A stretch of 64,000 nt of DNA from a virus, in the IMG/VR virus record IMGVR_UViG_3300037247_000703, positions 36,331-100,330 of that record; one strand, 5' to 3'. The notes under the pieces were generated by a model. It saw nothing but the letters and a program-made list of their open reading frames with translations. It ran no database searches and had not been told where the DNA came from. Positions 14,806 through 62,830 of this stretch are shown in pieces. Numbering within the stretch: the first letter of the stretch is position 1; every line of letters starts with the position of its first letter. Made by a program: the position numbers and the translations under genes.

Positions 14806-17800
14806 TTGCTTTCTCCGTCAACGCCGTCTAGCTCGGCTTGGAAGCCCCATGATTTTTCGTTCTCGACAGGGAACGGCTCGATATCGAGACCGTTCGGAAT
14901 CTCGTCGACCTTGATGCGCAAGCATCGCCGGATCGACTCGGCGAGCTTCACGCGCGCATCGTTGCGCTTGATGTAGGAGCCGCGCTCGATCTTCTCGCGG
15001 ATGACTCGGCGCAATGCGCGCAAGCCGTTCGTCGCGTCTTCTAGCCCTTGCTTCTTCCGCTCGCGCAGGTACACGCCGTAAGCGGTCTGAACGTGCAGCG
15101 CGATCTCCCCGTCGATGCCGGCGTAGTGAATGCCCTCGCGCAACGTGCCTTCCTGCGCGCATGCCGACAGCGATTCGAGAAACTGATCGAAGACGTCTTT
15201 CGCCCCGGCCTCGCCTTCAAGGAAGTCGTCACATTGGTAGGCGATCGCCGCCTGGAAGTCGGGGTCGGGCAACGAGACGCCTAGATTCTCACCGAAGCTC
15301 TGATAGGCGATCAGCCCGAACGCCATGACGACGAGATTGTCGATCACGCGACCGGGCACGTCTTCGGCGCCGCTGATGATGCTCTTGCCGTCGTCATCGG
15401 CTTGGGCGAGAAACTTGTTCGTAATCGACCGCGCCGCGTCGAGCCAGTCACCGAACGGCGCCTGCACCGCGAACTGGATCATCGGCAAGGCGAGCGCGCC
15501 CAAGTCGGCACGCCGGCAGATCGCGAACGCGCGGTGATGCTCGGGTGAGAGTTCGATCGTGTTCTTGTTCGGTGACGAACACAGGATACGCTCGGCGACG
15601 GCGGGGTCATGGTCGGGCTTGTTCTCGCCTGTGACGGACAGCGGCGCCGCGAGCACGTAGTTCGCCAGCGTCAGATCCGGCCGCCCACGCGATTCGGTCT
15701 CGCCACCATAGACGCGCCGCACGTAACGCATCAGTCGGTTGACGTTGCGCTTGAGCATGTCCGCCGGCTTGTACTCGTCGAGAACGATCGGCACGCCGTT
15801 CGTCGAGCTGAGCAGTCGCAGCATCGAGAACTCGGTCTCGGTCGCCGAGAACGGCTCGGCGTCGGTGACGCCATGAATACGCCAGAAGATTAGTTGCAGC
15901 GACGTCTTACCCGAGCCCTGTGTGCCCCAGTTCCACAGAATCGGAAAGTGACCCATCGCATCGGTGATCGGCTTGCGGAACGGCGCCGCGAAGTACCAGC
16001 CAATCAGCGGTAGCATCACGGCCGGCGTGTTGAGCTTCATCAGGTTTGGCAAGACCTCGGCCGCGATCTCCTTGACCTTCGCTTCGTCGACGACGGTGTA
16101 CTTGACGCGCGCCGCGAGTGGGGAGCCGTTGGCGACGTAGGCAAGTTTTTCGTCGGCCTCGATGCCGTTCGGTCCGATGATGCCTTCCGGTGTAATCCAT
16201 CGAACGTCACCACTAGCGCCGTTGGCGTACCACCCGAGCATGGTCGAGCCCGTGCGCTTCACAACGTCGGCGTCGGCGACGATGCGCAGGAGGCCCTGAA
16301 CCTGATCGTCATTGCCGGTCCATTGCAGGTCAGGCGAGATCCGCGTGATCGCCGCGAGGAATTGCCGCCGGCCCTGCCATGCGTTCGGCGGGAAGGCCAC
16401 GCCCTTGATCGTCTTGTTCTTGTCCGTGATGATGTCGCCTGTGATCTGCTCGACCCCCTCGACGCTCACGCGCTCGGTCGGGGTGATCTTGAACGACGAC
16501 AAGACAACCATGTCGCCATCCATGTTATGCGTGAAGTAGAAGTTCACGCCCTCGACGATCTCGCCCTTGAGCCGTTCGCGTTTGTCTTCTTCTTCCTTCG
16601 CGGCATCGCGCTTCTTCTTCTTTAGGAACTCGGCGCGGTCGCGAATCAGTTTCTTGACGTCAGCCTTGCCGACCTTGAACCGCTTGGCGATCGTCGCGAT
16701 GTATCCGGTCTGCTCGATGGCCGCCATGCCGACGAGTACATCGATCGCCGGTTCGAGCTTGCGGCCGATCTGGCTTGGCTCGGTCGCAGGCGACACGCGC
16801 TCGATCAGGTACTCGGGCAACCGTGTCGCGTGTTCGAGCACGCTGAGCAGCTCAGTGCCGCTGTTGGCGCGCAGGAACTCGTTGACGTCGATTTTGTCTA
16901 CGCCATCGGGCTTCGGCAGTTGTGCGAGCCGTGCATCGACGCCAGCCGCGAACAGAATCGATGCCGTCTTGACGGCGCCCTTTTCGCCCGCGCCGCTGTC
17001 TTCGGCGTCGTTGCAGATGACGAGCCGCTTGACGCGCTTGGCGAGCTTGACGAGTTTCTCGGTATCCTTGTCGCGGAAGCGAACGGTGACGGGCGAGATA
17101 CATGGGATGCCGACTTGTTGTGCGCTGATGCAATCGGTCACGCCCTCAGTGACGAGCCCGACGTCGATGACTCCGGTGAACGCGTCTTCGTTGTAGAAGA
17201 TCGAGTTCTCGATGTGGTCGCTCACGTAGGGGTGCTTCTCGCTGTGCGTCAGTAGCTTTTTGTACTTCGCCAGCTCGTGAGGGTCATCGCCCGAGTACGG
17301 CTCGCACCGCCGCGCGATGGCGTACTTCGGCATGCCGTGCTTCCAATAGGGGAAGACGATCCGATCCGCGAAAAAATCGACGATTTTTCCATTTCGGAAT
17401 TTGATGAACAGCCCCGACGCGAGGCACTGATCCTCTTCGAACCCCTCCCCCTTCAGATACTCGAACAGCCGACCGTTGCGCCCCTTGTGATCGACCTGCG
17501 GCCCCGCCCATCCGAGCATCAATCGATCGATCGTCTCGTCGATGAAGCCATAGTGATCGCGCAAGACCTCGTTGCGGATCTTGCTCGGTAGCGCGTTGTG
17601 GTAGTAGATGAACGCCGCTTCCAGTACCTTGCCGATCGCGTGCTGCGCGACGTAGCGCGCCTCCTGCTCGGCGGTGCGCTCCATGCGTTCGACGCCGTAG
17701 CGGTCGGCGAGGTAGTCGGCCGCAGCCATGAACGACCATCCGCGGATCTCTTGCAGCCACGAGAACACGTCGCCGCCTCGGTCGCCGCCGAAGTCGCGCC

Positions 17801-27593: not shown

Positions 27594-27950
27594 TCAGTCG
27601 CCTCCGTCTTGCAGGGTCCACCCTTCGGGCATGATCCACTCGGGGCCGTCGGCCACGAGCTTGATCTCGCCGGGGTTCTTGCGGTCGCTGTAGTGCATGC
27701 TCCATCCGCCGGATCGATAGGTGCCGCGCTTCGGTTGGTTGCTCGAAGACACGTCGATGTAGCGCGCGTCAGCCGGCTGTGTGAACGCGGCGCCGCGAGC
27801 CAAGATGATCTGCCGGGTCTTGCCCTTCACAGACAGGATTCGCACGAACCGCCGCTTGCCGCGAGGGTCATCGCCGTGCCGGTGAAGCCAGACTTGCCCG
27901 GCGCGCGGGATGCGCTCGGGCTGCCGGCAGACTCGCCGCCGTCTAGCCAC
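27594..27950 (-). CDS. Hypothetical basic protein (118 aa)
   Basis: The GTG at 27950 overlaps the end of the upstream gene by 8 bases, as is usual here; an ATG at 28016 would add 22 residues with a larger overlap. The product is basic and strand-rich (RFVRILSVKGKTRQIILARG), with a Trp-rich C-terminus (EWIMPEGWTLQDG). It could bind nucleic acid. No family is recognised. Confidence 0.62.
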   Translation of the reverse strand: MARRRRVCRQPERIPRAGQVWLHRHGDDPRGKRRFVRILSVKGKTRQIILARGAAFTQPADARYIDVSSSNQPKRGTYRSGGWSMHYSDRKNPGEIKLVADGPEWIMPEGWTLQDGGD

Positions 27951-28671
27951 GGTCGCGTCCCGCTGTGACAAGGTTGCCGCATTGCTGTGGGTCGGTTGCG
28001 GTTCGTTTTGGGTCATTTTGGATTTCGGCCCCGTGCGGTGCCGGTTCGTCTGGCGAGCTTGGCACACTCCTTTGAGTGGTGTCAGCGTTGCTTGGCACAG
28101 TCTTCGAGCGGTTCTCCTTGCGGTCGTAGTAGCCGGCCTTCCTCGCCCACTTGTCGCGGATCGATTTTGCGCGCCGGAGTCGGGTTTCGGCTTTCTTCAG
28201 CATCGCCCGGACGTGTTCCTCGCGTGCCGCCGCGCGCTGTCGCGCCGCTGTCGCGCAGTCGATGACCTCGGGTTCGGCGAACTTGATCGTCAGCCCTTCG
28301 TGCCACGTCGGTTCGAGTGTCCACCAATCGATCATGTTTTTGTGGTTGAGCCCGAGCGTGTGATCGATCTCGTGCTCGAAGATTTGGGCGAGCTTGCGGT
28401 AGTCGACTGGATCGCGCCCGTCGGCTCGGCACTCGGCGACGAATGCCGGGGGTGGAAGCGTAAGCCGAATCGTGATTCCGTGACGGTTGCAATCGCCTTC
28501 GGTCCCGAGAACTCCCCACCCGTGGAGCGCGGAACCCTTTCCATAGTAGATCTCAACCTCGCGCCACTCGACACCCTTGGCGCGCATGCCCGCCGACAGG
28601 AATCGGCGAATGTCGCGGGCGTCGTAGGTAGTGCGGTTCACGACTTTGAGTCGAAGACTTCTCGATGCCAT
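27943..28671 (-). CDS. Metzincin-motif protein, first gene of early operon
   Basis: A 242-residue protein. HEIDHTLGLNH at residues 100-110 fits the metzincin zinc signature HExxHxxGxxH exactly (His100, Glu101, His104, Gly107, His110). The N-terminal 90 residues are strand-rich; residues 140-185 form a basic coiled coil and the tail is disordered. Its ATG lies 7 bases after the -10 box of a strong promoter, so the mRNA is probably leaderless. A host- or phage-protein protease is the obvious idea, but other metal roles are possible. Confidence 0.6.
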   Translation of the reverse strand: MASRSLRLKVVNRTTYDARDIRRFLSAGMRAKGVEWREVEIYYGKGSALHGWGVLGTEGDCNRHGITIRLTLPPPAFVAECRADGRDPVDYRKLAQIFEHEIDHTLGLNHKNMIDWWTLEPTWHEGLTIKFAEPEVIDCATAARQRAAAREEHVRAMLKKAETRLRRAKSIRDKWARKAGYYDRKENRSKTVPSNADTTQRSVPSSPDEPAPHGAEIQNDPKRTATDPQQCGNLVTAGRDRG

Positions 28672-28678
28672 GAAGATG

Positions 28679-28707
28679 ATGTTAACAAAAGTCTAAACAG
28701 ATGTCAA
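28679..28707 (-). promoter_or_regulatory. Strong sigma70-like promoter of the leftward early operon
   Basis: On the minus strand TTGACA (28702-28707) is followed, after 17 bases, by TAACAT (28679-28684). The start codon at 28671 begins only 7 bases after the -10 box, so transcription should begin at or next to the ATG. No ribosome-binding site lies between. Confidence 0.75.
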
Positions 28708-28727
28708 CAGGAAAAAACGCATCGACG

Positions 28728-28757
28728 GTTCTTTTTTGTTTCGCGTTCTTTTTTGTT
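28728..28757 (+). repeat. 13-bp direct repeats in the divergent promoter region
   Basis: GTTCTTTTTTGTT occurs at 28728-28740 and again at 28745-28757, 17 bases apart start to start. The second copy overlaps the -35 box of the rightward promoter. The repeats could be operator sites or a bent T-tract element that sets the balance of the two promoters. Confidence 0.55.
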
Positions 28758-28784
28758 GACCGTGGGGCGTTCGCTCCGTACAGT
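28756..28784 (+). promoter_or_regulatory. Sigma70-like promoter of the rightward cassette
   Basis: TTGACC (28756-28761), a 17-base spacer, then TACAGT (28779-28784). An ATG begins at 28791, 6 bases after the -10 box, again suggesting a leaderless first codon. Confidence 0.7.
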
Positions 28785-28790
28785 AGAGCC

Positions 28791-28811
28791 ATGTACGAGG
28801 CAGTCAGCTAA
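28791..28811 (+). CDS. Possible leaderless 6-codon leader peptide
   Basis: ATG at the expected first transcribed base opens a six-codon frame (MYEAVS) that stops at TAA, 19 bases before the ATG of the Fis-type gene. If translated, it could couple or tune translation of that gene. This may equally be chance; it is too short to judge by composition. Confidence 0.3.
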   Translation: MYEAVS

Positions 28812-28830
28812 GCCAATCCGAGGAAAAGCG

Positions 28831-29208
28831 ATGTCGAAGAAAAAGAAGAACAGGCTACAGAACGAAATGCACGAGTTCGAGGCGGCCAAGATCCGCGAGG
28901 CGCTCTCGCGCACCGATGGCAACCTGAAGAACACCGCCGAGATTCTCGACATGCCGACGACCACGCTCACGTCGACGCTTCAGCGCCGACATCCGAAGCT
29001 GCTCGAATACGCTCGCACCCTGCGCGCGAAGAAAGGCAACGAACGAGGCCGCCCGCGCATCGAGGCGAGCGAGCGCACGAAGAAGGCCGTCAAAGTGGCG
29101 TGGCGCAAGGCCGACGGAATCCTCGCCGAAGCCGCGCGCCTGCTCAAGCTGCCGGCGTCGAGCACCCGCGAGCTTCTGATCCGCTACGAGATGATCGAGG
29201 CCGAGTAG
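28831..29208 (+). CDS. Double Fis-type HTH regulator
   Basis: A 125-residue protein from ATG 28831, with GAGG upstream. Residues 12-50 contain a Fis/HTH_8 unit (IREALSRTDGNLKNTAEIL, then TTTLTSTLQRR). A second, more diverged unit follows from about residue 85 (VAWRKADGILAEAARLLK), joined by a basic linker with an AT-hook-like GRPRIE. As the first gene of a divergent cassette it may regulate the two promoters at 28679-28784. A longer frame upstream crosses the promoters and is rejected. Confidence 0.8.
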   Translation: MSKKKKNRLQNEMHEFEAAKIREALSRTDGNLKNTAEILDMPTTTLTSTLQRRHPKLLEYARTLRAKKGNERGRPRIEASERTKKAVKVAWRKADGILAEAARLLKLPASSTRELLIRYEMIEAE

Positions 29209-31347: not shown

Positions 31348-31381
31348 AAAAAAAACGGCGCCCGGCTTTAACCGGGCGCCG
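31348..31381 (-). terminator. Strong intrinsic terminator of the leftward late operon
   Basis: A perfect 10-bp stem, CGGCGCCCGG with CCGGGCGCCG (31356-31365 and 31372-31381), closes a 6-base loop. On the minus strand it is followed by eight T (31355-31348). It stops leftward transcription from the tail genes before the rightward cassette. It lacks a T-tract for rightward transcripts. Confidence 0.9.
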
Positions 31382-31464
31382 CCGCTCGTGGGAGTGTCTA
31401 AATACCGCAGCCCGGATGGCCTTGGATCCGAACGCCTTCCGACGCCCAGCACCCCACGAACACT

Positions 31465-32103
31465 CTAGATCGGAGTCGCAGGCGGTCGGGCCGGCTGTGT
31501 TTCGGCGCGGTCGCTGTTCGGTGTGTTCCCCTTCTTCAGATCCTTGAAGAATTCGACACCGCCGGCCGCCGCAAAGCCGATCAGCAGGCCCGTGAGCACG
31601 AGCCGAGCTGACAGGCTTTGTCCGGCTAGCTGCCCGGTGAGCACTGCGCCGGCCGTCGAGCTGCCCAGGTTGAGCGCCCACCCACCCCACCGGCTTCTGA
31701 ACCATGCGAGAAAACTCAGCATTTCCCAGCCGACCGCGATTCGAAGTCCGACCATCAACAGCATCAAGGCCGCAGTCGCCGCGAGCGCGTATTCGCCCGA
31801 CATGACCCATTCGAGCACCTTCGTCGCCAGACCGGCAGGATCGTCAGCCGATGGCGCATCAGGAGCCTTCTCCGGGGCTGTGACAGCCGCTTCGCCGGAG
31901 GGCGCCTCGGCAGCGGGGGCCGGAGCCGGAACCGCTGGGGGCGCGTCAGGGGCCACGACTGGCGCCAAGACCTCCGGTTCCGCCGCAGGTTCGGCCGGAG
32001 CCTCGACCGTGGGCGGTTCGACTGGATCGGTGGGTTGTGCAGTGGCGCTGAGTGCCGCGGACAAACCGACCGCGACGAGCAGCATCGATAGGTATCGCCT
32101 CAT
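31465..32103 (-). CDS. Secreted/membrane protein, holin-like candidate
   Basis: A 212-residue protein with GGAGGAG before the ATG. A signal peptide (residues 1-23) is followed by about 60 residues of Pro/Ala/Glu-rich linker, then three hydrophobic segments (ALAATAALMLLMVGL, STAGAVLTGQLAG, LVLTGLLIGFAAAGG). It is the last gene of the late operon, next to other membrane proteins. A holin or lysis accessory is plausible; no family is recognised. Confidence 0.55.
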   Translation of the reverse strand: MRRYLSMLLVAVGLSAALSATAQPTDPVEPPTVEAPAEPAAEPEVLAPVVAPDAPPAVPAPAPAAEAPSGEAAVTAPEKAPDAPSADDPAGLATKVLEWVMSGEYALAATAALMLLMVGLRIAVGWEMLSFLAWFRSRWGGWALNLGSSTAGAVLTGQLAGQSLSARLVLTGLLIGFAAAGGVEFFKDLKKGNTPNSDRAETQPARPPATPI

Positions 32104-33465: not shown

Positions 33466-33852
33466 TCAATCTCGCGTGGTCGGTAGCTTGAACTCGATGT
33501 TGCTGGCCGGTGAAACGATGTGCTGAATGTCGGCGCCGAGCGTGAGCCGCGCATCCCATTTGAGAATGTCGTCGCCGAGCACGAGCGATGTTTGCGCCGG
33601 ACGGAAGAAGATTTTGACCTTGCCTTTGTTCACGACCTGATCCGGATCGACGAGAACCTGTGAAGCGTCGGTCGTGGATAACCGGAACAGTCTGGTTTCG
33701 TCTTCGTTGTTCTCGCGAACGTCGATCTCGATCAGTGCCCCGGTGATATCACGCGGGAAGTTGTCTTCTTCGTCTACGACGAGAAGCTCGATCGTGCGCG
33801 AGCCGCCGATGACGAGCGCGCGGTTCCCTACCAGATCGTGACGGCGAGGCAT
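33466..33852 (-). CDS. Probable small structural protein (128 aa)
   Basis: A strand-rich product (VIGGSRTIELLVVDEE, ITGALIEIDVREN, GKVKIFFRP). Its first part resembles the N-terminal module of some baseplate-type proteins, but this is only a visual impression. It is translationally coupled to the upstream 67-residue gene (TGATG). Confidence 0.5.
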   Translation of the reverse strand: MPRRHDLVGNRALVIGGSRTIELLVVDEEDNFPRDITGALIEIDVRENNEDETRLFRLSTTDASQVLVDPDQVVNKGKVKIFFRPAQTSLVLGDDILKWDARLTLGADIQHIVSPASNIEFKLPTTRD

Positions 33853-57669: not shown

Positions 57670-58650
57670 CTAGCAGTTCCCGGCCCCAGGTCGGTTCGTA
57701 TTCTCAGGTGGCTGGATGATAATGCCATCCGTCTCTGTCACGCGAGAGAGTTCGACAACCAAATCATCGGCTACCCCCGCCAAATCCTCAAGATCGAAGC
57801 CTCTGATGATGATGTTTCCGGCGAAACTCCGCACGTTGGAGTCATTCAGACGGTCTGTGGAGCTGGGCTCACCGCCTTCCTCGGTGAAGTCCATCTCGTA
57901 GCGGATCTTGCCCAGTGAGGGATCTGCCGGGTCGCGATCCATCGTGATGAACTTGTTGCGGCCGATGAACTTCGTGAAAGCCGCCATCAAATTCAACTTC
58001 TGTGCCTTGAGTTCAGCAACGCCGACGACCTCGAAAAGTAGATCGACCGTGTAGGGGGATCGCCTGATTTCAACCGTGCCATCCGGCAGCTCGATCTGTT
58101 GCTTCTCGTTGGTAGAAAAAAACCGGTTCTCGTTGATGTCTGGCCCTACCAAGATCAGCGCGGGCAGCTTGGCAATCCGCGCAATATTCAGGAAGTCTTG
58201 GGTCGAGCCATCGAAGTCGGTGTGAGCCGTCAAGCTCACTTCGTCAATGACCTGCCGTTTCAGCTCTTGGATGAACGTGCGAACTAGGCGCGTCAGGTCA
58301 TCTTGTGCCGTGAGGTTCGGGCGCCGGAACGTGTAGCCATTGACCTTCGTCGCGACCTCGCCCCCGATCGGATCGCCGTTGTCATCGAGGTTCGTGAGCA
58401 CGACGTCAAACGCGCCGGGGTCGTGAATGGGCGCGAGGCACGTCACCGAGCCTTGCGAAAATACGCGCACGTCGGTCGCCTCGATACCGCCAAACTCTAC
58501 GCGTACGGTGCGCGGAAAAGTTCCGCCGACGAAACCGGTTGCCGGCGGATCGGGAGGAAGCCGCGCATTGTTGGTTTTGAGGCGCACAAGGTTCCGACCG
58601 CCAGTCGGCCCCAACGTGGGGGTTACTGAAACGATCAACGGGACGGCCAT
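57670..58650 (-). CDS. Structural protein with IPT/TIG domain
   Basis: A 326-residue protein from ATG 58650 (a TTG two codons upstream is less likely). The first 110 residues form an IPT/TIG immunoglobulin-like domain (PLIVSVTPTLGPTGGRNLV, VRVEFGGIEATDVRVF). The remainder is helical then strand-rich, ending Pro/Asn-rich. By position between tail completion and sheath genes it is likely a tail-terminator or connector component. Confidence 0.62.
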   Translation of the reverse strand: MAVPLIVSVTPTLGPTGGRNLVRLKTNNARLPPDPPATGFVGGTFPRTVRVEFGGIEATDVRVFSQGSVTCLAPIHDPGAFDVVLTNLDDNGDPIGGEVATKVNGYTFRRPNLTAQDDLTRLVRTFIQELKRQVIDEVSLTAHTDFDGSTQDFLNIARIAKLPALILVGPDINENRFFSTNEKQQIELPDGTVEIRRSPYTVDLLFEVVGVAELKAQKLNLMAAFTKFIGRNKFITMDRDPADPSLGKIRYEMDFTEEGGEPSSTDRLNDSNVRSFAGNIIIRGFDLEDLAGVADDLVVELSRVTETDGIIIQPPENTNRPGAGNC

Positions 58651-58675
58651 TGCCAAAAACTATAACACGCGGCTC

Positions 58676-59314
58676 CTACGTGGGCGGTTTTCCGCTCGGT
58701 CTGCCGATGTTTCCTTTCATGATGATCGCCACCCGGTTCATCACGCGCTTCTTCAGTACGCTCGGTTTCGCAAACCGTTTGAAGACTGGCCCGAACACGG
58801 GGCGCGGCGGAATGCGCACGATGATAATACCGCCGCCGCCCTCGCCTTCCAGACCGCGTGTAGCTCGATGCGCTTCGAATGCAGCGAACAGAAAACGGCG
58901 CATCTTCGCCGTCATCTTGATCACGATCGGCTTGCTGCCGAACTCGTTGAGCCGCATGATGTCGGCGAGCAGGCGACCATCATCGGCGCGCACCGTTCGC
59001 TGCACGCCGATGAAAACGAAGTCGCGCTTCTGCAAGACGCTGATCGATCCAACGAGCCCCTGACCACCGGTTCGAATGAGCGCCTTCGTTCCCCGGAACC
59101 TGCGGAAGCGCCGTGTCGCAACCGTAGTCTTCGCGAGCTTTTTGAACTGCCGACCGCCCGGGGCTTGCTTGCGGATCCCTTGTACTAGTTTCTTGCGAAG
59201 GAACTGGCCCTCTTGTTTCATCGCCTTGCGAATCGCGCGGTTGAGCTGTGTCGCGTTCGCGAAAAACGTTCGCCGGGTCTTCGACCAATCGCCGGTTTTG
59301 ACGAGAGCTGTCAC
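58676..59314 (-). CDS. Tail completion / virion morphogenesis protein
   Basis: A 212-residue protein from GTG 59314, overlapping the amidase stop (GTGA). The basic N-terminal helix (FFANATQLNRAIRKAMKQEG), LIRTGGQGLVGSISV and an IPPRPVFGPVF motif resemble the gpS/gpG-type virion morphogenesis family, which completes the tail top. A longer upstream frame is rejected. Confidence 0.72.
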   Translation of the reverse strand: MTALVKTGDWSKTRRTFFANATQLNRAIRKAMKQEGQFLRKKLVQGIRKQAPGGRQFKKLAKTTVATRRFRRFRGTKALIRTGGQGLVGSISVLQKRDFVFIGVQRTVRADDGRLLADIMRLNEFGSKPIVIKMTAKMRRFLFAAFEAHRATRGLEGEGGGGIIIVRIPPRPVFGPVFKRFAKPSVLKKRVMNRVAIIMKGNIGRPSGKPPT

Positions 59315-60234
59315 TGATTGAGATAGTCTCGCAACACCATGCTGACGTATACCTCGAACGACAGGCACGACGGACGAAGCTCGATCACTTCGTAGACGAA
59401 CTCCCAATCGAACCAAACCGACTTGCGAAGCCAGCCGACATCCCAGCCGCCATATTTGTTCGAGCGACCATACAGGTCGACGTCTTCGTGCGCCGGCAGC
59501 CGCGGGGAGCGCGGGCAGCCGCGGGGATCGACGTACCAGTCATCGGGCCAATCCCAACGCTGCGCCAGATCCCACGCGAGGAACGCGACTGCGACGTGCT
59601 GCCCGGTCGTATGCCGCAACCCTTCCCGATGCGGTTTGTGCTCGGGCAGAGCGGTCCACCTGCCGCGAACATAAAATCCGCACGGCGGAAGCTCGATGCC
59701 GACGTAGCTGTCGTTCACGTAGCGAGTCGGGAACAGGTGCTGCGGCGACTTGTAGTGCCAGTCACCCTTCCATCGCTTCACAGACATGGGCACGATGGGG
59801 CCGATCAATCCTTCGTCGCCTTGACCCTTGGCCTTCTTCCCCTTCGCCCACGCGCCGCTAAGGTACGCGGCCCGCTCGTGACCGGACACGCCGACGTGTG
59901 GGGTGCGAAGCCGATCGTCGGTGTATTGAAACAGCATGCCGTCGTAATCGGCGAGGTAGTGAACCGAGTAATCCTTCCGGGTGTAGTAGTTGCTCGCGTA
60001 GACGATCGGATCGGCGCCGGCATCGACCGCTTTTTTCACGATGGTCGAACCGGTCATGTGTACGACGAGCCCGTGAACCGGATACTTCCGCTCGCGCGCC
60101 TTGCGTAGATCGTCGTCGCCGTACTCTGTCGCGATCGGGCTGTCTCCGATGCGATCAGGAAAGACGGTGTAGATCCGGCTCTGCGGCTTGGCTATATGCG
60201 GCGTCGAAGAAACCCGGGTGATGCGTCTGGACAT
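59311..60234 (-). CDS. N-acetylmuramoyl-L-alanine amidase (endolysin)
   Basis: A 307-residue protein of the amidase_2 family. Its zinc ligand His59 lies in LVVHMTG; KDYSVHYLADYDGMLFQYTDD and TPHVGVSGHE are the typical core, and YVGIELPPCGF contains a likely catalytic Glu. It cleaves the peptide stem from the glycan to lyse the host or open the wall during entry. No ribosome-binding site precedes its ATG, and a TAGACT -10-like box ends 6 bases upstream, so its message may be leaderless. Confidence 0.82.
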   Translation of the reverse strand: MSRRITRVSSTPHIAKPQSRIYTVFPDRIGDSPIATEYGDDDLRKARERKYPVHGLVVHMTGSTIVKKAVDAGADPIVYASNYYTRKDYSVHYLADYDGMLFQYTDDRLRTPHVGVSGHERAAYLSGAWAKGKKAKGQGDEGLIGPIVPMSVKRWKGDWHYKSPQHLFPTRYVNDSYVGIELPPCGFYVRGRWTALPEHKPHREGLRHTTGQHVAVAFLAWDLAQRWDWPDDWYVDPRGCPRSPRLPAHEDVDLYGRSNKYGGWDVGWLRKSVWFDWEFVYEVIELRPSCLSFEVYVSMVLRDYLNQ

Positions 60235-60474
60235 GGGCTCAGTCTACCGAGCCACTATGAAAACGCCCTCCGGCCGGAGGCAACCACCTACAGCCGGAGG
60301 GCAAATGTCTGGCAGGAACCACCCCACCTGACGCACGCCTACAGGCTAGACGAGCCACGCTCGATTGTCCATAGTCGAACCAATTTGCGACCATTATCGA
60401 CACCTTACAGAAAAGGTCGATTTCTCGTTATTTTCCGTTGACGGATGCGAGAGCGCATTGCTAAGATGCTAAAC
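60235..60474. promoter_or_regulatory. Divergent control region with palindromes
   Basis: This 240-base gap separates the leftward late operon from the rightward cassette. It holds the palindrome CCTCCGGCCGGAGG at 60267-60280 and a larger inverted repeat with 10-bp arms (60265-60274, 60293-60302), and GGCTC/GAGCC arms immediately before the amidase start. Leftward TAGACT (60241-60246) is a -10 candidate without a good -35, as often seen for activated late promoters. A weak second leftward candidate is TCGACC/GATAAT (60415-60420, 60393-60398). Confidence 0.5.
60438..60467 (+). promoter_or_regulatory. Sigma70-like promoter of the SNF2 cassette
   Basis: TTGACG (60438-60443), an 18-base spacer, then TAAGAT (60462-60467). 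The ATG at 60475 begins 7 bases after the -10 box, so the first message is probably leaderless; no Shine-Dalgarno sequence is seen. Confidence 0.6.
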
Positions 60475-60654
60475 ATGGCGCACACGAACAAGATCGGCGG
60501 GAAGACCCCGAAGCAATGGCTCGCGAACTACGAGAAGATGGTCGACCCACCCGAATGCGAGAATGGTCATTTCGGCTGCTCTTGCACAGCGAAAACCGGC
60601 GGCCCTTGCATGAACGAAATGAGCCTTCTCGTAGAGCAACCCGATGATCAATAA
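60475..60654 (+). CDS. Small zinc-binding-like protein (59 aa)
   Basis: ATG 60475 is chosen because it lies at the expected first transcribed base; an ATG at 60445 would lie inside the promoter. CENGHFGCSC and GPC provide four cysteines. The end overlaps the SNF2 gene by 11 bases. The function is unknown. Confidence 0.65.
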   Translation: MAHTNKIGGKTPKQWLANYEKMVDPPECENGHFGCSCTAKTGGPCMNEMSLLVEQPDDQ

Positions 60655-62830
60655 GTACGCGGGCACCTGTTACGACTGCGGCGAGCGTGTCGCAGTCGGC
60701 GAAGGCTCGGTCGAGAAGATCGGCGAGAAATGGGAGACGCGATGCAACAGCTGCGTCGGAGCCGACTCGCCGACAATCCGGTTCGAACTGAAAGAGAATA
60801 TTCGCAACACCGCCATCGCGCGCCCCGAGCGGTTCCTTGTTGGCGAGTGGTTTCAAACGTGGCGCAACGCATGCGCGCACGGAGGCTCGCGGTACTGGAA
60901 AGATCCTGACGGCGAAAACGGTGGCTACCTCGTGACGTTCGACGCGCTGCCGCGATTGATCAAGGAGCTGCGCTCAGCCAAGTTCGAGATATCGGTCGAC
61001 CCGCTCGTGAAGAAGGCGATGACCGATCATGTCACTGCGGCGCAGGAAGACGACTCCGATGCGGCTGCGCGCCTCGACGAGCTTGATGCGAAGCTCGCAC
61101 TTGAAGGCAAGGCCGCGTTCAAGTTTCAGAAGCAAGGAACGCGCTGGCTCGCTCCACGGCACGGCGCCATCCTGAACGACGACATGGGGCTTGGCAAGAC
61201 GATGCAAGCCTTGCTCTCTGTGATGTACAGCGCGGCCGTCGTCGTCGTGTGTCCCGCGATCGCGAAGCCAGTTTGGCTGCGCGAGATCGCCAAGTGGCGC
61301 CCCGACCTGAAACCGGTCGTGCTCGATGGTCGCAAGTCGTTCCGCTGGCCCGAGCCCGGCGAAGTCGTCATCATCAACTATGCCATTCAGCCGGCGACTG
61401 CAGCCGAAGAAGACGTGCCCGCCGGCATCCCCCGCGTCAACGAAGGCGACGTCGCGACCGGCACCGTGATCATCGGCGACGAAGCACAGGCACTCAAGAA
61501 CAACAAGAGTCAACAAACGAAGCGCTTTCGCGCGATGGCCGACCAAGTGCGCAAGGCTGACGGCCGCGTGTGGCTGCTCACGGCAACTGCAATCCTGAAC
61601 CGCCCGCCCGAGCTGTGGGCGTTGCTGATCGCTGCCGGCGCGCATCACGACTCATTCTCAAACTTCGATCGGTTCAAGGATATGATGGGCGGGCGCGACG
61701 GTCGCTTCGCGATCGAGTGGGGCAAGCCTGCGCCGGCCTGCGTCGAGCTTCTTCGTCGCGTGATGCTTCGGCGCACGAAGAAGGGTGTGATGCCCGATCT
61801 TCCCGGCAAAATCTTGGCGGATCTCACAGTCGAGATCGATCGCAAAACAACAAAAATCTGTGACGCCCAGCTCGCCGAACTGGAAGCCAAGGGCATCGAC
61901 CTGACGCGCGCTACGCGTGACGCGATCATGTCGAACCTTCGGAAAATTCACTTCGAAGACACATCGACCGCGCGCAAAGCGCTCGCCATCGCGAAGATTC
62001 CGGCGATGCTCAAGTTCGTCGAGCAGTGCGAGCAGAACGATGAACCGCTCGTTGTCTTCTCGCGACACCGTTCGCCGATCGATGCGCTCGACGGTCGTAA
62101 GGGTTGGGCAGTCGTGACCGGCGACACGCCGCAGAAACGACGCGGGCAGATCGAAGACGACTTCCAAGCGGGCAAGCTGCGCGGCGTGGCCGGCACCATT
62201 CAGGCCATGGGCACTGCCGTCACCTTGACCGCAGCCGCGCAGGAGCTGTTCGTCGACGAGAGCTATACGCCTTCCGAGAACGAGCAGGCGCAGGATCGGT
62301 GCCTCCGCATCGGCCAGACCCGCACCGTCAACATCACTCGACTCGTCGCGAATCACCGGCTCGATGAGGGGCTCGCTCTGCTGTGTGCGCAGAAGACCGA
62401 GATCATCGACGGCTCGGTTGACAAGGCCCAGGTCATCGACATCGAGAATCCGACCGAAGCACTCGCCGCTGCCGCGAATGCGGTGACGGAGTCGACCGAG
62501 AGCGAGCAGGCCGCCGAAGACCGCCGCCAACAGCGCGACCACGAGCGGGCCGCCAGAGCCGCCCAGATGGCCGCTGACGGCCGTCCCTCCGGCGTGGCCG
62601 GGAAGCGCCGGGAAGCTCTCACAGCCCGAGACAAATGGGCTGTGAGCGTGCTACGTCGCCTCGCCGCGGATGCCGGCTTCAACTCCCTCGACAACGAGTT
62701 CGGCCACAGCCTCGCTGCCCAGCTCGCTGCCGACGGCCTCACCGACATCCAGTGGCGCGCGGTCATTAAGCTGTGCTCGCGCTACGACGAGCCGCCGGCC
62801 GAGAATGCCGCCGACGGCCTGCCGTTCTAA
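60644..62830 (+). CDS. SNF2-family DNA translocase / helicase
   Basis: A 728-residue protein. A zinc ribbon (CYDC, CNSC) leads. DDMGLGKTMQ near residue 180 is Walker A, IIGDEAQALKN near 278 is motif II, LLTATAILN motif III, and AQDRCLRIGQTRTVN near 552 motif VI: a SMARCAL1/HepA-type SNF2 ATPase. A helical, Ala/Arg-rich domain ends in DGLPF. Such ATPases remodel stalled forks or strip proteins off DNA. It is unusual that it is transcribed rightward inside the late region. Confidence 0.85.
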   Translation: MINKYAGTCYDCGERVAVGEGSVEKIGEKWETRCNSCVGADSPTIRFELKENIRNTAIARPERFLVGEWFQTWRNACAHGGSRYWKDPDGENGGYLVTFDALPRLIKELRSAKFEISVDPLVKKAMTDHVTAAQEDDSDAAARLDELDAKLALEGKAAFKFQKQGTRWLAPRHGAILNDDMGLGKTMQALLSVMYSAAVVVVCPAIAKPVWLREIAKWRPDLKPVVLDGRKSFRWPEPGEVVIINYAIQPATAAEEDVPAGIPRVNEGDVATGTVIIGDEAQALKNNKSQQTKRFRAMADQVRKADGRVWLLTATAILNRPPELWALLIAAGAHHDSFSNFDRFKDMMGGRDGRFAIEWGKPAPACVELLRRVMLRRTKKGVMPDLPGKILADLTVEIDRKTTKICDAQLAELEAKGIDLTRATRDAIMSNLRKIHFEDTSTARKALAIAKIPAMLKFVEQCEQNDEPLVVFSRHRSPIDALDGRKGWAVVTGDTPQKRRGQIEDDFQAGKLRGVAGTIQAMGTAVTLTAAAQELFVDESYTPSENEQAQDRCLRIGQTRTVNITRLVANHRLDEGLALLCAQKTEIIDGSVDKAQVIDIENPTEALAAAANAVTESTESEQAAEDRRQQRDHERAARAAQMAADGRPSGVAGKRREALTARDKWAVSVLRRLAADAGFNSLDNEFGHSLAAQLAADGLTDIQWRAVIKLCSRYDEPPAENAADGLPF

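Follow-up and report, generated by a model that had tools for sequence, protein, structure and literature searches.

In the AT-rich intergenic region at positions 28672-28790 of an uncultivated phage genome, the leftward of two divergent sigma70-type promoters is predicted to begin its transcript at the start codon of a metallopeptidase-like gene, P0001. From sequence, the prediction that P0001 mRNA is leaderless and begins at its start codon is well supported, and we assign a probability of roughly 0.74 to the overall explanation in which the leftward transcript is leaderless, the rightward transcript is led by a Shine-Dalgarno (SD) sequence, and chance accounts for the AUG with its 6-codon ORF at the rightward predicted start. 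Under this explanation the two promoters have a common upstream T-tract module, host RNA polymerase would initiate leftward transcription at A28671 or no more than one base away, and ribosomes would start on the AUG that opens the metallopeptidase-like mRNA. Transcription to the right would start near A28791, with a helix-turn-helix (HTH) protein translated from an ordinary SD behind a leader of about 40 nt. The phage would then use both modes of initiation, leaderless for some operon-leading genes and SDs elsewhere.

The window, the whole stretch of 64,000 bases analysed, comprises bases 36331-100330 of an IMG/VR record of 100,330 bases. Its genes include those for a tail sheath, a tape measure and baseplate proteins, and it therefore belongs to a contractile-tailed phage. 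Megablast of 20 kb of the window against 50,697 phage records gave no match. In genome collections, relatives of the sheath came from MAGs of a mixture of phyla and from one Streptomyces isolate, giving no consistent host, and no WhiB gene was present in the eight genomes searched.

Divergent promoters and the leftward gene P0001

The leftward promoter (28679-28707, minus strand) reads TTGACA-N17-TAACAT, with its -35 box at 28707-28702, its -10 box at 28684-28679 and an extended TG before the -10, while the rightward promoter (28756-28784, plus strand) reads TTGACC-N17-TACAGT, with boxes at 28756-28761 and 28779-28784. An earlier note on this DNA had placed these boxes 7 nt from ATG 28671 on the minus strand and 6 nt from ATG 28791 on the plus strand, and both placements were confirmed. 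Between 28300 and 29200 they are the only promoter-like sites scoring at least 9/12 for sigma70-type boxes, which may not be those of the host. Box presence by itself says little, because a scan of 18 kb found four promoter-like sites against a shuffled mean of 3.0, which is no excess. Placement was assessed with 100,000 dinucleotide shuffles of 28672-28790, counting sites of at least 9/12 that end 5-8 nt from an end of the region. A qualifying site appeared at the plus end in 0.13% of shuffles and at the minus end in 0.14%, and at both ends in 0 of 100,000. The region itself spans 119 bp and is 44% GC, versus 60% for the genome. It contains an inverted repeat (28703-28760; arms 28703-28720 and 28743-28760, 83% complementary) that spans both -35 boxes, and the sequence GCGTTnTTTTnnTGTTGAC is common to the two promoters, at and above the -35. 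A direct repeat, GTTCTTTTTTGTT, occurs at 28728-28757(+) as two copies 17 nt apart just upstream of the plus-strand -35, the extra copy lying at 28728-28740. This inverted-repeat module may represent an UP element or an operator.

P0001 (27943-28671, minus strand) is a 242-aa ORF with a metallopeptidase-like motif, FEHEIDHTLGLNH, and ATG 28671, which has no SD, is its single usable start: an in-frame TAG lies upstream, and the next in-frame starts, GTG 28641 and ATG 28587, are likewise without an SD. The 7 nt from TAACAT to ATG 28671 fit transcription starting at the start codon. Coding score was positive in the P0001 frame and approximately zero or negative in the other frames, antisense included. 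Searches for relatives were negative: Pfam returned only a sub-threshold Reprolysin_4 match at the HExxH, motif scans of viral contigs gave no relative confirmed by tblastn, and tblastn against phages gave none. Two degenerate-pattern HExxH scans returned 0 and 2 matches, the latter two sharing the motif EHExxHTLGLxH. Both P0001 and the first rightward gene, P0002, are absent from 16 sheath-bearing relatives. The collections searched yielded no homologue, so the assignment of the P0001 start depends on ORF structure together with the coding score. P0001 stands first in a leftward run that also contains helicase, methylase and primase genes, with which it would be co-transcribed, and we infer that this run is one early operon, its timing being judged from that gene content.

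Close -10 boxes across the lineage

Relatives of the phage were taken from viral contigs by their tail sheath, and genes were called by a home-made gene finder whose scoring favours SDs and includes no promoter term. P0001 was missed by this finder and does not enter the counts that follow; any gene caller with this preference for SDs will set starts of this kind wrongly or overlook them. In the discovery set (G000, the window's own genome, with G001, G006, G007 and G011), 21 SD-less genes have a TANNNT ending 6 nt before the start, versus approximately 1.9 expected, and the held-out genomes G009, G013 and G014 contribute 7 versus 0.63. Pooled over the eight lineage genomes, this amounts to 28 of 419 SD-less genes, versus a mean of 2.54 at other offsets (Poisson P about 6e-20, a value that is too small because the array genes of G011 are related). 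The signal is uneven among genomes: G000 alone shows a weak peak with two genes at offset 6, and in G009 taken alone the signal is absent. The SD-led genes of the held-out genomes are richer in TANNNT at offsets 19-24, which is where promoters with a leader should have it. Among the control phages, T4, Lu11 and SP-15 (80 kb each) have no SD-less gene with TANNNT at offset 6, and BRock has 1 versus 0.17, which is no clear peak.

Two small-gene regions of the relatives carry recurrent promoter sequences. In G011 (L044:6660-9840) small genes form an array that occupies both strands, and most of them are preceded by TTGCAC-N16-TAGGAT or TTGCAC-N16-TACAGT placed 6-7 nt before the ATG; from its sequence this is probably a stereotyped, co-regulated promoter set. 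In G007, at about 51.5-57 kb of its record, small-gene promoters have TGTCCCGCATCCGG in common, placed between their -35 and -10 regions in an operator-like arrangement.

A virion gene has a comparable box. An extended -10, TGtTATAGT (58659-58664, minus strand), stands 8 nt before ATG 58650 of a TIG-domain gene (57670-58650) that adjoins the tail sheath gene, so near-leaderless starts extend beyond the early genes. Two relatives (L068 and G001) carry TGcTATAGT 8-10 nt before the start of their TIG-domain genes and four others (G007, G011, G009 and L057) carry a TANNNT 6-10 nt before it; further relatives, for example G013 and L069, are without such a box.

These offsets bear on the possibility that a leader only a few bases long, or one of normal length from another promoter, precedes P0001 in the leftward mRNA, which would then be translated independently of an SD in some other way. 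Offsets of 8-10 nt before the TIG-domain gene in several relatives would agree with a short leader, transcription start sites commonly shift by one or two bases, and a discriminator of 7 nt could itself give a one-base leader. The pooled lineage peak, however, is narrow and lies at 6, beside a lesser peak at 7, and another promoter is disfavoured by the lack of any further site of at least 9/12 in 28300-29200. We therefore regard this possibility as unlikely. The earlier note had proposed that the early operons may be read as leaderless mRNA, and for the leftward operon the single usable start without an SD, the -10 at 7 nt and the lineage TANNNT excess give that proposal good support.

The rightward transcript and the T-tract promoter family

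On the rightward side the proposal is not supported. ATG 28791, which does stand at the predicted +1, opens only a 6-codon ORF (28791-28811; ATG TAC GAG GCA GTC AGC TAA, MYEAVS*), and the gene that really heads the rightward operon is P0002 (28831-29208, plus strand); the earlier note mentioned neither the shortness of this ORF nor the SD-led start behind it. P0002 encodes a 125-aa protein with a Fis-type HTH (HTH_8, PF02954; E 1.5e-8, above the cut-off). An SD, GAGG (28820-28823), lies 7 nt before ATG 28831, so P0002 is SD-led, and its leader would measure 40 nt in a transcript beginning at 28791. The statement that neither side has an SD is accordingly correct for ATG 28671 and ATG 28791 and incorrect for the rightward gene. 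Motif scans of viral contigs gave no P0002 relative confirmed by tblastn, and tblastn against phages gave none. A plus-strand ORF runs through the promoters (27910-29208), but its coding score led us to reject the part before 28831 as a gene. Further along the window, where a rightward run meets a leftward run beginning near 31465, a strong terminator-like stem with 13 pairs, 10 of them G-C, and a T tail was observed at 31354-31383(-).

A T-tract followed by GTTGAC was found at five sites of this phage: 19413(+) and 33776(-) in G000 coordinates, and 28708(-), 28755(+) and 60437(+) in the window; at 15272(+) a similar T-rich stretch precedes TTGACG. Three of these promoters place the ATG of an ORF of 59-242 codons 6-7 nt after the -10. 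They are 28708(-), with P0001 at 7 nt; 19413(+), with ATG 19449 of a 77-aa ORF at 6 nt from a weak -10, CATACT; and 60437(+), whose promoter TTGACG-N18-TAAGAT (60438-60467) lies 7 nt before ATG 60475 of a predicted leaderless 59-aa ORF (60475-60654), just upstream of an SNF2-type helicase gene (60644-62830). The others lead to the mini-ORF (28755(+), at 6 nt), an SD-led gene (15272(+), at 25 nt) and a tRNA-Leu (33776(-), with TTGACT and the -10 CATGCT). This tRNA-Leu (CAG), at L003:13653-13739(-), equivalent to G000 33653-33739, lies outside the window, and since its predicted 5' end falls 7 nt past CATGCT, transcription may begin right at the 5' end of the mature tRNA. The succession of T-tract, GTTGAC, -10 and 6-7 nt provides a rule for finding operon heads of this phage. 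A weaker candidate, TAGACT (60241-60246, minus strand), stands 6 nt before ATG 60234 of the gene at 59311-60234 and has no recognisable -35.

The habit of this family, in which the other ORF-leading members mostly put an ATG at 6-7 nt, lends some weight to an alternative in which both transcripts are leaderless and the 6-codon ORF encodes a leader peptide whose translation adjusts P0002 output, either through termination-reinitiation or by occluding the P0002 SD. Its ATG falls exactly at the predicted +1 with a C before it, and from the end of its stop codon it is 8 nt to the SD and 19 nt to ATG 28831, near enough for coupling. Against this, the chance that any one promoter has an ATG at either of two positions is about 3%, no relative of P0002 was found, and none of the 32 leadered SD promoters of the lineage has an ATG at the corresponding +6/+7 position. 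The mini-ORF is thus not a recurring feature, and its status as a recurring class was rejected. We consider a leader peptide of this kind quite improbable, and slightly more doubtful still is the fuller proposal that a leaderless leader peptide controls an SD-led HTH regulator lying 20 nt further downstream, so that the pair would link two initiation modes in one switch. A coincidental AUG and 6-codon ORF before an SD-led P0002 remains the reading that we prefer. That the boxes are mere chance likenesses in AT-rich DNA, as the unexceptional 18-kb scan might suggest, is highly improbable given that joint placement was never reproduced by shuffling and that the T-tract and GTTGAC recur before other genes and a tRNA of the phage.

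Comparison with known systems

Leaderless phage mRNAs, divergent pairs such as that of Corndog among them, are already described, although the layout is not a common one. The present analysis would extend leaderless operon heads to contractile-tailed phages of an uncultivated group, whose genomes combine leaderless with SD-led genes, on the basis of the lineage-wide positional signal, the held-out genomes and the control phages. The closest arrangement is that of the cluster O mycobacteriophages (Corndog and others), where PL1 and PR2 form a divergent pair predicted to be leaderless on both sides (PMC4351075). The AT-rich intergenic region between the divergent promoters fits that arrangement. 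Here only the leftward side is well supported as leaderless, its gene starting at the predicted +1, while the rightward +1 carries the 6-codon ORF; furthermore, cluster O phages have long flexible tails, whereas this phage has a tail sheath. TA-led (TANNNT) leaderless genes are established in Actinobacteria and Deinococcus-Thermus (PMC3160421, PMC12340547) and show the same TANNNT -10 close before an SD-less start, but in the present lineage such genes are a minority class, in phage genomes, beside many SD-led genes. Most middle and late transcripts of the Thermus phage phiYS40 are leaderless, and expression of host IF2/IF3 changes (PMC3594737); the likeness lies in a tailed phage with leaderless mRNAs, which here are predicted from sequence. 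Finally, the lambda cI mRNA is a leaderless phage message beginning at its AUG (PMC9031893). In lambda the leaderless gene is the repressor, whereas here the HTH gene is SD-led and the predicted leaderless gene is metallopeptidase-like.
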